A stretch of DNA of 64,000 nucleotides. It comes from Methanobrevibacter sp. TLL-48-HuF1. GTDB lineage: Archaea > Methanobacteriota > Methanobacteria > Methanobacteriales > Methanobacteriaceae. Position 1 is the stretch's first letter, and each line of letters starts with the position of its first letter. This document shows, piece by piece, positions 38,742 to 45,668 of the stretch. The stretch is from the NCBI RefSeq assembly GCF_023617305.1, contig NZ_CP081485.1:186001-250000 (forward strand), in the 5' to 3' direction. A program made the translations under genes and the position numbers. The notes under the pieces are model-generated. The model ran no database searches and was not told where the DNA came from. It saw only the letters and a list, made by a program, of their open reading frames with translations.

Positions 38742-41027
38742 TTAACTAACTTTTATGGTATTTCCTGTCTGGAATTCGTTCCATATTGAGGTTATGATGT
38801 ATTCTCCAGACATTAACCGAATATTTAAACTAGCTAAACCATCAGCACCAGTAATTTTATGATAAAACACTCCATTTACATTAAATGAAACATTTTGATT
38901 AGCTAGTGGTCTGCCCTGACCGTTAAGCACCTGTGCTGTAAATCTGCTGCCGTCCAGATAGTCCATAATAAGATTTTGCGTTACTAATGTCGGCAATACA
39001 TTAACCTGCTTTCCTATTTCAAGTCCGTCAAAGATTGTTGTAATAACATATTTTCCAGGTCTTAAATTGATTGCTAAACTAGCTGAACCAGTTAAATCAG
39101 TTTCACAGGTGTAGAATATTCCATTTATATTGAATGTTACATTTTTATTAATAGCTAAACTTCCATCTTTATTATAAAGTGTTACATTGAATTTGGAAGC
39201 ATTTAAATAATATTTTGTTAAATCACAAGCTGCAATTAAACTTTTTACAGTGATATTGAATCCTCTTTCTTCAGAATTTGCCGGATTATAGGCAGTTAAA
39301 ATATAATTGTCCGGCCTTAATTTAATTCCTAATTTAGCTACACCTTTACCATCAGTTTCACGAGTGTAAAACACACCATTAATATTGAATTTAACTTTGC
39401 TGTTAGCTAATGCACATCCAGTATTATCTAAAAATTCAGCAATGAATTCTGTACCATTCTGATACATTAAAACAGTATCTCGAGCTAAAACAGTTGATTT
39501 GACATTTATTTTTCCGCTAGCTTCAGTTGGATTGTAAATGAAGTTTCCATTATAACTTACATTAACCAGATAGTGATTAGCTTTCAAATTGACTGTTAAA
39601 AATGCCAAACCTTCATTATCTGTTGTTCGATTATAAACTCCTCCATTGATATTAAATGTTACTATAGCATTAGCTATTGGCTTTTTGAAATTATCAGACA
39701 AATTAGCCATTAATCGGGAACCGTCTTTATAATACATCTCAAGATCATTAAGACTTAAAAATGCATTTTGAACTGCATCAACAGTTGTATTTAAGATTTC
39801 ATTGTCCACAATAGCTGTTATTACATATTTACCTGAAGTATTTGTCTGGAATATGTTTCCGATTATATCCCCACCTGTGCTTTTAAATATTGCATTTCTT
39901 TTAAAAACTGCATTGTTCCATATCAACCTAATAGCTGTTGGCGTATTAACTTTAACTTCAGAATCCATATTCAGTTTTACAGCAGTATAGTTTTTAATGC
40001 TTATCTGACCGTTTATTAAATTACTGAAATTCGGATTGTTATCTGCCCACCAGTTATCATTTAAATCCATTTTTTCCCTGAAATTTTCATAATAGATTGT
40101 ATTGGTATTGTTGATAAATCCGCAATAGTTAATCTGACCCCCTGTACTTCTTATATAAATTGCCCCACCTTCCGGAGATGTATTGTTTAAATATTCGCAG
40201 TTATAACTTTCAAAAATCCCATATCCATTTTTTCCGTTTGTATAAACTGCTCCGCCACATTTGCCTGCTGTATTATTAATGAATGATGAATTATAAATTC
40301 TTGTTATTCCTGTCCAGTGATAAACAGCTCCACCATAATTATCATTACCTGAAGCTGTGTTATTAATAAAACTGCAATTGAAAATATCTGCATAAGAATC
40401 ATTTATTTTAAGTGCTCCTCCATTTCTTCCAGCACTATTAAACTCAAATGTAGAGTTAATTATTGTTGTATGGCTCCTTTCAAGACTGGATATGCATCCT
40501 GCATCACGTATTGCTGTATTATTTGAAAAATAGCTGGAAATTACTGTTAAATTACCGTGATTATCAATGCATATTCCATTGATTCCGCTGTTTTCAATAA
40601 ATTTTGAATCCATGATTTTTAAGCTGGCATCTTTATTTACAGTTATTCCGCCATACCCTTCAGTAAATGTGATTCCTTTAACTGTTATGTTATTGCCTGT
40701 TATTTTAAAAAAGTTTTCATAATTTTGCCCGGTAAAAACAGTGTTTTCACAGCCAATAATATTCAGATTATTCTTTGATATTTCCAGTCCGTTATTATGA
40801 GGACCATTGTAATATCCATTATTGACGATAATAGTATCGTTATCATTAGCTTTGTTTAATGCTGAATCTAAACAATTAAATGGATTGCTGCTGGAACCGT
40901 CTCCATCATCAGATCCTGCTTTTACATACCATAAATTTTCCTGAGTTATATTATCATCAGCTGCAGCCAATGGTATTGTTAACAGCAGAAAAAATAAGCT
41001 TATTAAAAATACAACCTTTTTATTCAT
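38742..41027 (-). CDS. Adhesin-like protein: beta-helix plus four Ig-like repeats
   Basis: 761 residues. Residues 1-23 form a signal peptide ending in PLAAA. Residues about 33-330 are a right-handed parallel beta-helix of the pectate-lyase/polymorphic-outer-membrane type, with recurrent SxFINNTA and GGAVY units. After a linker come four Ig-like repeats of about 85 residues, each holding FNINGxFYxxxTDxxGxAxLxI. There is no C-terminal membrane helix or sorting motif, so attachment to the wall is not explained. This is the typical build of Methanobrevibacter surface adhesins. Monocistronic, with 150 bp between it and the divergent Mop gene. Confidence 0.85.
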   Translation of the reverse strand: MNKKVVFLISLFFLLLTIPLAAADDNITQENLWYVKAGSDDGDGSSSNPFNCLDSALNKANDNDTIIVNNGYYNGPHNNGLEISKNNLNIIGCENTVFTGQNYENFFKITGNNITVKGITFTEGYGGITVNKDASLKIMDSKFIENSGINGICIDNHGNLTVISSYFSNNTAIRDAGCISSLERSHTTIINSTFEFNSAGRNGGALKINDSYADIFNCSFINNTASGNDNYGGAVYHWTGITRIYNSSFINNTAGKCGGAVYTNGKNGYGIFESYNCEYLNNTSPEGGAIYIRSTGGQINYCGFINNTNTIYYENFREKMDLNDNWWADNNPNFSNLINGQISIKNYTAVKLNMDSEVKVNTPTAIRLIWNNAVFKRNAIFKSTGGDIIGNIFQTNTSGKYVITAIVDNEILNTTVDAVQNAFLSLNDLEMYYKDGSRLMANLSDNFKKPIANAIVTFNINGGVYNRTTDNEGLAFLTVNLKANHYLVNVSYNGNFIYNPTEASGKINVKSTVLARDTVLMYQNGTEFIAEFLDNTGCALANSKVKFNINGVFYTRETDGKGVAKLGIKLRPDNYILTAYNPANSEERGFNITVKSLIAACDLTKYYLNASKFNVTLYNKDGSLAINKNVTFNINGIFYTCETDLTGSASLAINLRPGKYVITTIFDGLEIGKQVNVLPTLVTQNLIMDYLDGSRFTAQVLNGQGRPLANQNVSFNVNGVFYHKITGADGLASLNIRLMSGEYIITSIWNEFQTGNTIKVS
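38745..39776 (-). repeat. Four tandem Ig-like repeat units inside the adhesin
   Basis: Four units of about 85 codons encode a shared core: a strand before LANSKVKFNINGVFY, then an ETDGKG turn, then a LRPGxYxIT strand. The protein core is well kept while the DNA of the units has diverged, so they are old duplications and not a recent array. They form the stalk or the outer end of the adhesin. Confidence 0.7.
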
Positions 41028-42465: not shown

Positions 42466-43497
42466 CTATAAAGAGTTTATAGCTTCTGTAATTAACTGAA
42501 TAGTTGATTCAACATCTTTCATACTGCAGACACTTACAGTAGTATGTATATATCTAGTTGGAACTGATAAAACTCCAGTTGGAATTCCTTCCCTTGTTAA
42601 GTGAATAGCTGTACCGTCAGTTGTTCCGCCGTCACTTACTTCTAACTGGTAATCAATTTCATTTTCATCACCTGCTTTAATAAGCAAGTCTTTAATTGAT
42701 TGTTGAGTAAGGATTCCACGTCCGCTTGCATCAGCTAAAATTATAGCCGGACCTTTACCCATTACCACTGGTGCTTCTTCAGGTTTAATTCCAGGATGGT
42801 CTCCGGATAAGGTAACGTCTAATGCAATAGCCATATCAGGATTTAATTTAAATGCAGAAGTTTTTGCTCCTTTAAGACCTACTTCTTCCTGTACAGTACC
42901 TACACCGTAAACAGTAGCTCTTGTGTTTACTCTTTTTAAAACTTCCATCATTACATAACAGCCTACACGATTATCTAATGCTTTACCCATAATTAAATCG
43001 TTTGGATATTCTTCAAACCAGGCTCTGAAACTTATTTTATCTCCAATACGAATCATTTTTTCTGCATCTTCCTGGTCTTTTGCACCGATATCAATAAACA
43101 TGTCGTCTGCTTTTACAACTTTGTTTCTTTCTTCAGGTTTTGTAACATGAGGTGGTTTTGAGCCAATAACCCCCGGAACATCTTCTCCAATGCTGCTGTG
43201 AATAATTACAGACTGATTCATTAGCATTTGGTCATTAATTCCACCGATTGTTGAGAATTTGACATATCCTTTTTCATCAATATATCTGACCATCAATCCG
43301 ATTTCATCCATATGGGAAGCTAACATTACAGTAGGTGCTTTTTTCTCACCTTTTTTAGTAGCTATTACATTACCCATACTGTCTTCTTCAATAGAATCAG
43401 CAACATCTTTTAATTCTCTTTTAATAATGTTTGCTATTTTTTCTTCAGATCCAGAAACACCTGGAGTTAAAGAAAGCTCTTTCATTAATTCCATCAT
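42466..43497 (-). CDS. M42 family metallo-aminopeptidase
   Basis: 343 residues of the tetrahedral aminopeptidase/FrvX family. Two-zinc site residues are in [11 protein letters not shown] (His), [13 protein letters not shown] (Asp), [11 protein letters not shown] (catalytic Glu-Glu), VTLSGDHPG (Asp) and the C-terminal [10 protein letters not shown] (His). It degrades peptides released by the proteasome. GGTGAT overlaps the first of two consecutive ATGs, so the true start may be the second ATG or the ATG at 43485. Confidence 0.9.
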
Positions 43498-43564: not shown

Positions 43565-44644
43565 TTACTTCTTATTTGTTAATGCCTTAAATCCAATTGT
43601 AGTTGTACTGTATTTGGTTCCAGCAGCTTTAATAACATCCTGGATTTTAGATGTAAGATAAGATTCAGGTCTCCAAGGTGCATCTTTATCTTCACCAACA
43701 ACAGAAACTTCATCAACAATGTCATTTTCAAGAAGGTATACTAAAATAGCTGATACTACACCACCGTCCTGACCCATAATTGAATCTGCTTTTACAGAGT
43801 AAATTTCAAGGTATTCACCTAACGGCTGTTCATCAATTCCTTCAGGATATATTGCATCACTGATAAATGTTCTAGGACATGCAAAGTAACATGCATGACA
43901 TTCTTCTTCACATTCTTTTATTGATACCGGTTTTCTGTTGTTTATCTGAATAGCTTCAATTGGACAGACATATTCACATGCACCGCATAAAACACATGCT
44001 CCTACACTGATTACATCGTTTTGCAAGTTATCAAATTGGCATTTGCTGCATTCATCATAAAACTCTTCTTCAGATATTTGTCTTTTTGATAAAACAGGTC
44101 TTCCGATAGCTTCCCGTTTCTTGTAAATCCTTGTATTTTTAGTGATTTTCTGATTAGCTATTTTTTCCAATAAATCCTGACCTTTTTTGGAAATCGGTTC
44201 AGCTTCAATGTATCCTTCAGCTATACATGCATCAATTATTTGTTTACCTTTTTCAGTTCTTACAATAACAGTTGACTGATACTTCGGAGAACCAACAGAT
44301 CCAACAGAAATATCTGAAACATCAGAAGTATAATCAGTACAGATATGGCAATTTTTACGAGTAAAAGGTTCAGTTTCAGCTATTGGTATTTTAAATACAT
44401 TACCATCTATTAAATATGCAACAAATTGTCCTTTTTCTATTCTAAATTCTTTAACTTCAAATAATTCAATACCCTGACTTTTTAAATATCTTTTAAGATA
44501 CTGGTATGAGAAGTTTTCCATACAAAACAAACCTATTTTAACATCAATAGGAGAACCGCCGGTTTTTTCTTCATATCTATTAATTTTTGTAGCTGCTAAA
44601 ATTTGGCAAGGAGTTCCTACCATAGCTGTTTTCTTATTACCCAT
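43565..44644 (-). CDS. FrhB-like F420/flavin iron-sulfur protein with swapped domain order
   Basis: 359 residues. The protein starts KKTAMVGTPCQILAA and runs through GLFCMENFSYQYLKRYL, FTRKNCHICTDYTSDVSDIS and VGSVGSPKYQSTVIVRTEKG: this is the FrhB/FdhB C-terminal domain. Two ferredoxin-type clusters follow (CVLCGACEYVCP, CEEECHACYFACP). The chain ends with GQDGGVVSAILVYLLENDIV to KAAGTKYS, which is the FrhB/FdhB N-terminal domain. Usual members have these domains in the opposite order. Likely passes electrons between F420H2 or another donor and a partner. Start ATG 44644 behind GAGGTGA. Confidence 0.8.
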   Translation of the reverse strand: MGNKKTAMVGTPCQILAATKINRYEEKTGGSPIDVKIGLFCMENFSYQYLKRYLKSQGIELFEVKEFRIEKGQFVAYLIDGNVFKIPIAETEPFTRKNCHICTDYTSDVSDISVGSVGSPKYQSTVIVRTEKGKQIIDACIAEGYIEAEPISKKGQDLLEKIANQKITKNTRIYKKREAIGRPVLSKRQISEEEFYDECSKCQFDNLQNDVISVGACVLCGACEYVCPIEAIQINNRKPVSIKECEEECHACYFACPRTFISDAIYPEGIDEQPLGEYLEIYSVKADSIMGQDGGVVSAILVYLLENDIVDEVSVVGEDKDAPWRPESYLTSKIQDVIKAAGTKYSTTTIGFKALTNKK

Positions 44645-44891
44645 ATTTTTCACCTCTTATGCTAACATAATCATATTAATATAATATATGTGTCGTAATA
44701 TCATTTAAAGTTTTTTATCAAACTAAACAAAATACTTTAAAAGCAAATTAAAACAAAAATTTGTTTAGATAATCTAATTTATACCAAATAAAACTATACA
44801 AAAATACAATTATAGTATAAAATATTAAATAATATTTAAACAACACATTTAAATAATACATAATTATTATTAATAAAACAAAGGTGAGAGT

Positions 44892-45668
44892 ATGAAAACA
44901 TTTACAAAAATTGCTAAAATCTATTTTAGCCCATCAAGTACAACAAGGAAAATAGTAGATGAAATAGCCAATAAATTTGAAGGCACGCAAGAAGAATACG
45001 ACTTATTAAATGTAGCTGGTGGAAATTCTCCAAAAGAGTTTGATGATGACACATTAGTAATTGTAGGAATGCCTATTTTTGCAGGAAGACTTCCGAAAAC
45101 AGCCAGTACAAAATTAATGAACTTTAAAGGAGAAAATATCCCTGTAATAGCTGTCGTAAACTACGGAAACATAAATATCGGAGATGCACTCCTTGAGTTA
45201 AACGACATATTAAAAGAAAACGGATTTACCATCGTAGGAACCGGTGCAACAGTCAGCCAGCACTCAATAGTAACAGATGTTGCAGCAGGCAGACCGGATG
45301 AAAAAGATTTAGAAAAGCTTAATGAATTTGTAGAAAAATGCAGGGAAAAATTAGATTCTGAAGAATTTGAAGACATTGAAGTTCCGGGCAATAAACCGTA
45401 CTGCGAATATAAAAAAGTTCAATTAACTCCAATCTGTGACGAATCATTATGTACATACTGCTACGAGTGTGTTTCATCTTGTCCTGAAGAAGCTATTCCT
45501 GATATGGACCCTGGACAAACAGATGCTGATCTTTGCAGTGCATGTACTGCCTGCATATATACATGTCCTGAAGATGCAAGATACTTTACCGGAGACTTAT
45601 TTGAAGGAATGAAAGAAAGATTCCTAACTAACTTCAACCAAAGAAAAGAAAGTGAATTTTATTTATAG
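44892..45668 (+). CDS. EFR1-type flavodoxin plus two-cluster ferredoxin
   Basis: 258 residues. The N-terminal flavodoxin-like domain has the phosphate loop YFSPSSTTRKIVDEIA and the FMN loops MPIFAGRLPK and VVNYGN. The C-terminal ferredoxin has two 4Fe-4S motifs, CTYCYECVSSCP and CSACTACIYTCP. Such EFR1 proteins are soluble electron carriers of anaerobes. It diverges from the FrhB-like gene over a 247-bp AT-rich gap, suggesting a shared redox role. Strong AAAGGTGAG ribosome site. Confidence 0.85.
   Translation: MKTFTKIAKIYFSPSSTTRKIVDEIANKFEGTQEEYDLLNVAGGNSPKEFDDDTLVIVGMPIFAGRLPKTASTKLMNFKGENIPVIAVVNYGNINIGDALLELNDILKENGFTIVGTGATVSQHSIVTDVAAGRPDEKDLEKLNEFVEKCREKLDSEEFEDIEVPGNKPYCEYKKVQLTPICDESLCTYCYECVSSCPEEAIPDMDPGQTDADLCSACTACIYTCPEDARYFTGDLFEGMKERFLTNFNQRKESEFYL

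Follow-up and report, generated by a model that had tools for sequence, protein, structure and literature searches.

The closest described relatives of the protein reported here are MTBMA_c06440 of M. marburgensis and MTH193 of M. thermautotrophicus, which have been listed as F420-dependent glutamate synthase, a function that "remains to be proven" (PMC3087415). FGltS(I) and FGltS(II) were proposed by Susanti and Mukhopadhyay in 2012 (PMC3448663), and these two proteins are probably the FGltS(II)-alpha of that proposal. A swapped domain order is on record for MTBMA_c06440 (as ADL58239, annotated as F420-dependent glutamate synthase): the legend of Fig. 9 in an eLife article of 2013 (PMC3591093), which does not use the word permutation, likens its C-terminal 83 residues to the FrhB N-terminus and its N-terminal 182 residues to the FrhB C-terminus. 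Within the FrhB family, the beta subunit of the F420-reducing [NiFe]-hydrogenase (FrhB) runs from N-domain to C-domain and lacks a ferredoxin of its own (this lies in FrhG), while chains of the F420-dependent sulfite reductase (Fsr, N-terminal half), of FpoF/FqoF and of the F420-reducing CO dehydrogenase component 8riu start at a ferredoxin that is followed by the N- and then the C-domain (Fd-N-C). The beta subunit of formate dehydrogenase (FdhB) begins with the N-domain and places its two-cluster ferredoxin last (N-C-Fd). For ANME archaea, Chadwick et al. 2022 (PMC9012536) describe FrhB6 in a Pfor cluster and FrhB10 in a glutamate synthase cluster, and by that description they adjoin the same kinds of genes as the permuted proteins discussed below. 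The permutation itself is thus already known; the exit of the gene from its operon and a wider permuted clade appear to be new within the searchable literature, and a search covering few subscription journals found no paper naming circular permutation in the FrhB family.

The window analyzed here, a stretch of 64,000 nucleotides from Methanobrevibacter sp. TLL-48-HuF1, encodes an orthologue of the MTBMA_c06440/MTH193 type (Table 1) in which the C-domain comes first, two ferredoxin clusters lie in the middle and the N-domain closes the chain (C-Fd-N), as the initial annotation had proposed. Pfam places FrhB_FdhB_C (PF04432) at residues 4-153 (E 1.7e-46, 158.2 bits against a gathering cut-off of 23.3), Fer4 at residues 212-233 (E 7e-5) and FrhB_FdhB_N (PF04422) at residues 290-349 (E 9e-19, 67.9 bits against a cut-off of 22), so that both family domains score above their gathering cut-offs while violating the family's N-before-C order. 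The same inversion appeared in a phmmer comparison with an FrhB structure, where two stretches matched in reversed succession (query 272-347 to 6qgr_B 4-82, and query 3-181 to 6qgr_B 98-281). A TAA immediately 5′ of the start closes the reading frame, and therefore no second in-frame N-domain lies upstream. A search of the whole genome (1.95 Mb in one contig) found exactly four FrhB N-domains and four C-domains, and the three remaining pairs are arranged N then C.

Table 1. Features of the window and of related loci in other genomes.
Feature	Location	Strand	Remarks
Permuted FrhB-like gene	43565..44644	-	359 aa; putative F420H2-oxidising subunit of archaeal glutamate synthase
FrhB C-domain, chain start	44186..44635	-	aa 4-153, PF04432
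Two-cluster ferredoxin domain	43865..44035	-	aa 204-260; clusters about 211-260
FrhB N-domain, chain end	43598..43819	-	about aa 276-349; PF04422 match 290-349
Shine-Dalgarno-like GAGGTG	44651..44656	-	6 nt 5′ of the ATG (44644) that begins the 359-aa ORF; from sequence
EFR1-like flavodoxin-ferredoxin gene	44892..45668	+	divergent neighbour; placed outside the system
M42-type peptidase gene	42466..43497	-	downstream; frequent class B neighbour; functional link not inferred
Pseudogenised gltS operon, G019	L193 2955-6400		
Pseudogenised unlinked permuted subunit, G019	L194 1916-2965		
Permuted FrhB beside por (pyruvate:ferredoxin oxidoreductase) genes	L215, L219, L221, L222, L224-L227, L229, L230, L232		
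Permuted forms directly upstream of an Mtd-like gene	L217, L218, L223, L228, L231, L233, L234		mostly about 487 aa

Both FrhB-type domains are homologous to those of FrhB and keep its four cluster cysteines as well as the QDGG and GTKYS motifs. The C-domain ligands of the FrhB-type [4Fe-4S] cluster (C13, C41, C99 and C102) correspond by alignment to FrhB Cys 104, 134, 192 and 195, an EKGQ loop is the equivalent of FrhB GKGK, and the N-domain carries the predicted FAD-binding motifs QDGG (292-295) and GTKYS (342-346), whose Lys-Tyr aligns with the FrhB FAD loop (FrhB ligand positions and FAD-loop residues from PMC3591093). The eight cysteines of the central ferredoxin (C217, C220, C223, C227, C245, C249, C252 and C256) are invariant. 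On the NCBIfam frhB equivalog TIGR03289 the protein scores 196.4 bits, below the curated cut-off of 331.5. The best PDB matches of its AlphaFold model (pLDDT 88.2, pTM 0.88) are FrhB subunits, with a TM-score to target of 0.55-0.57 for an overlay that covers the C-domain only, as Foldseek does not align permuted chains end to end.

The permuted protein is a conserved form rather than an oddity. Of the 152 genomes examined from the phylum, about 128 encode the C-Fd-N order at 42-100% identity, nearly always in one continuous alignment; they span several families and 18-19 of the 20 genera, and the order recurs in at least 80 public contigs from Methanobrevibacter, Methanosphaera, Methanobacteriaceae and relatives. 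An alignment of 48 orthologues shows no variation at any of the 12 cluster cysteines (three [4Fe-4S] clusters), at QDG or at G-KY; these positions include C13, C41, C99, C102, Q292-G294 and K344-Y345 by the numbering of the 359-aa protein. Because the alignment is continuous in roughly 128 genomes down to 42% identity and these 48 orthologues share the expected residues, chance or artefact is excluded as the source of the order. We accordingly give next to no credence to a misassembly or an overlooked upstream N-domain hiding the usual order, a reading for which we found no supporting point and which is refuted by the recurrence in this phylum and in other archaeal families and by the stop codon that abuts the start.

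The FrhB linker between GTKYS and TPCQ supplies both new termini in the alignment, which bears out the earlier proposal that a circular permutation had cut the chain between the N- and C-domains; roughly 15 residues of that linker have no counterpart in the permuted protein. The further suggestion that the ferredoxin was a newly inserted connector did not hold up. The ferredoxin-N half (residues about 204-350) aligns uninterrupted with the N-terminus of Fsr (7np8 residues 6-139), with residues 9-160 of 8riu, and, in the same genome, across the C-terminus of frhG, the stop and the N-terminus of frhB. This continuity argues that Fd-N-C was the ancestral cyclic order, as in Fsr, FpoF-like proteins and the frhG-frhB pair; Fsr, FpoF/FqoF and 8riu share the three modules and their cyclic order with the window protein, but that chain starts at the C-domain. 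A cut in the N-C linker and a joining of the C-domain to the ferredoxin would turn Fd-N-C into C-Fd-N, presumably by the usual route of tandem duplication followed by trimming. With only the C-domain/ferredoxin junction new, the route through the clusters need not change. FdhB, which also combines FrhB-type domains with a two-cluster ferredoxin in a compatible cyclic order, was rejected as the ferredoxin source, since its ferredoxin resembles that of the window protein less (alignment z 3-4) than does that of FrhG (11.5).

Genomic context differed between two classes of genomes. In class A, a split glutamate synthase is encoded by an operon whose GXGXG and FMN-domain genes flank the permuted gene. 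By Pfam, the genes follow the order pdxT (often), class II glutamine amidotransferase, GXGXG, permuted FrhB and Glu_synthase; this operon was found in every sampled family of the Methanobacteria and in most members of that class, including Methanothermus-, Methanothermobacter- and Methanosphaera-type genomes among others. In class B, which includes the window, the gene stands alone beside neighbors that vary by genus, often an M42 peptidase and, in one group, a divergent EFR1, and the genomes keep pdxT-GATase-GXGXG-gltA2 with exactly the permuted gene missing. The operon of the window's own genome lies at G000:C1 481-485 kb, about 250 kb from the permuted gene, and its GXGXG and gltA2 genes are 4 nt apart at the place where that gene belongs. 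MTBMA_c06440 has the same C-Fd-N order and about 49% identity to the window protein (orthologue at L127, presumed M. marburgensis), but it lies inside the operon; the adjacency that is usual, though not strictly defining, for the MTH193/FGltS(II)-alpha type is absent for the window gene. Operon-borne members in general gave single full-length alignments with the window protein at 42-53% identity and in the same order. Most likely, the gene left the gltS operon in the lineage of smithii-type Methanobrevibacter and related genera. In one genome (G110, L204 246-4795) the order is GATase-GXGXG-gltA2-permuted subunit, so that the gene comes last (3′) in the operon; this arrangement may be an intermediate stage of the exit or a re-insertion. 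Elsewhere in the window's own genome, a second glutamate synthase-domain protein follows three rubredoxin-like repeats (L169 6803-8440; G000:C1 about 107.8-109.4 kb) and is possibly a different, rubredoxin-linked FMN enzyme.

Despite this separation, the permuted gene tracks the glutamate synthase genes. With genes scored as present at E<=1e-45 (permuted gene) or E<=1e-170 (gltA2), 124 of the 152 genomes have both, 20 have neither, and four are discordant in each direction (Fisher p 2e-17, ignoring relatedness); every discordant genome but one is less than 90% complete. The informative set is class B, because co-loss is trivial in class A, and here gltA2 was present in 34 of 36 genomes, the two exceptions being 80% and 63% complete. 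Among genomes with gltA2 only, contig ends adjoin gltA2 in two (G073 and G035), a third (G074) is 87% complete, and a fourth (G011; 99% complete, 300 contigs) has a gltS operon with no permuted gene detected, which counts against the reading we prefer. Joint decay was seen in G019, in which stops or frameshifts disrupt the permuted gene and each of GATase, GXGXG and gltA2, whereas the neighboring pdxT and M42 genes are still open. The permuted subunit and gltA2 have congruent trees (distance correlation r 0.82-0.85) that share one taxon incongruence, the grouping of class A species of the window's own genus with other genera; correlated trees by themselves can mirror shared descent. Neither gene was found in five genomes of about 99% completeness each (G041, G045, G102, G022 and G115). 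A 692-aa Fd-N-C protein of G041, considered as a replacement subunit, was set aside because from its sequence it reads as an Fsr of normal order.

Based on the operon context in relatives, the operon that lacks exactly this gene, and the co-occurrence, tree congruence and co-decay of the two loci, we propose with a probability of roughly 0.8 that the permuted protein serves as the F420H2-oxidising input subunit of a split archaeal glutamate synthase, acting in trans. The swapped domains should assemble into a standard FrhB unit, in which F420H2 would give a hydride to a bound FAD. Single electrons would then pass to the [4Fe-4S] cluster of the C-domain, on to the pair of clusters in the central ferredoxin, and from there to the ferredoxin-like N-terminus and the FMN of the catalytic GltA2, which would make glutamate from glutamine-derived ammonia and 2-oxoglutarate. 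In the lineage of the window, the subunit may form a complex with the GATase, GXGXG and GltA2 proteins encoded about 250 kb away. No assay of any permuted-type member was found in the literature searched.

The orphan location allows for a changed partner in the clade of the window, such as the divergent EFR1 that the initial annotation had named for checking as a conserved partner, in which case the subunit would have been recruited after the operon exit and would serve as an F420H2:flavodoxin/ferredoxin oxidoreductase. EFR1 is, like the permuted subunit, a redox protein, and it is divergently adjacent at most smithii-type loci of one genus. Within class B, however, this adjacency is restricted to part of the lineage and missing in most other genera, which rules EFR1 out as an obligate partner, and the permuted gene occurs, evolves and decays together with the unlinked gltS operon; the conserved partners are the glutamate synthase genes, and we judge recruitment by EFR1 or another new partner very unlikely.

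Beyond Methanobacteria, a search of 396 genomes returned full-length permuted matches at 33-41% identity in further archaeal families. Among 79 FrhB-family proteins, a set that includes deliberately fetched permuted loci and whose ratio is not a frequency, 20 were permuted, 58 normal and one was not resolved, and Pfam confirmed the C-before-N order for ten permuted proteins. Most of the permuted genes in these further families immediately precede por genes (porC/G, porD, porA and porB, by NCBIfam on representatives), and in L225 the permuted ORF runs on into a TPP-binding domain. For others, the downstream gene resembles F420-dependent methylene-tetrahydromethanopterin dehydrogenase (Mtd), as NCBIfam confirmed for L217 and L218. 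In a tree built with the domains of permuted proteins restored to N-C order, 38 of 40 permuted proteins formed one clade (SH-aLRT 93), which favors a single origin; as several branches are long, we take this grouping as support and not proof. The two remaining proteins (L220 and L225) fell outside the main clade in the free quick tree, as several independent fusions of C, ferredoxin and N pieces would predict, but a tree holding all 40 together had a likelihood higher by 35.5 log units (AU p 0.88) without proving the clade, and the continuity of the ferredoxin-N half fits an ancestral Fd-N-C order, so we consider separate fusions unlikely. Whether one ancient permutation of the Fd-N-C module founded a clade of F420 adaptors with differing partners (split glutamate synthase in Methanobacteria, por operons elsewhere, genes beside Mtd), free-standing in smithii-type methanogens, is in our estimate an even call; if it did, the permuted proteins beside por would mean that the archaea encoding them oxidise or synthesise pyruvate in an F420-linked way, and the position of these proteins points to a pyruvate metabolism linked to F420 in archaeal lineages beyond the Methanobacteria.

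These results call for a correction of annotation, as such proteins often go by the names "FrhB" or "F420 hydrogenase beta"; the labels distort hydrogenase counts in gut methanogens, where an F420H2 inlet of nitrogen assimilation would be the better reading. A natural permutation of a three-module redox protein, long kept and joined to varied catalytic partners, also offers a test of module order against electron transfer. Elsewhere in the window, positions 38742-41027 encode a large, secreted, adhesin-like protein in which Ig-like stretches recur.
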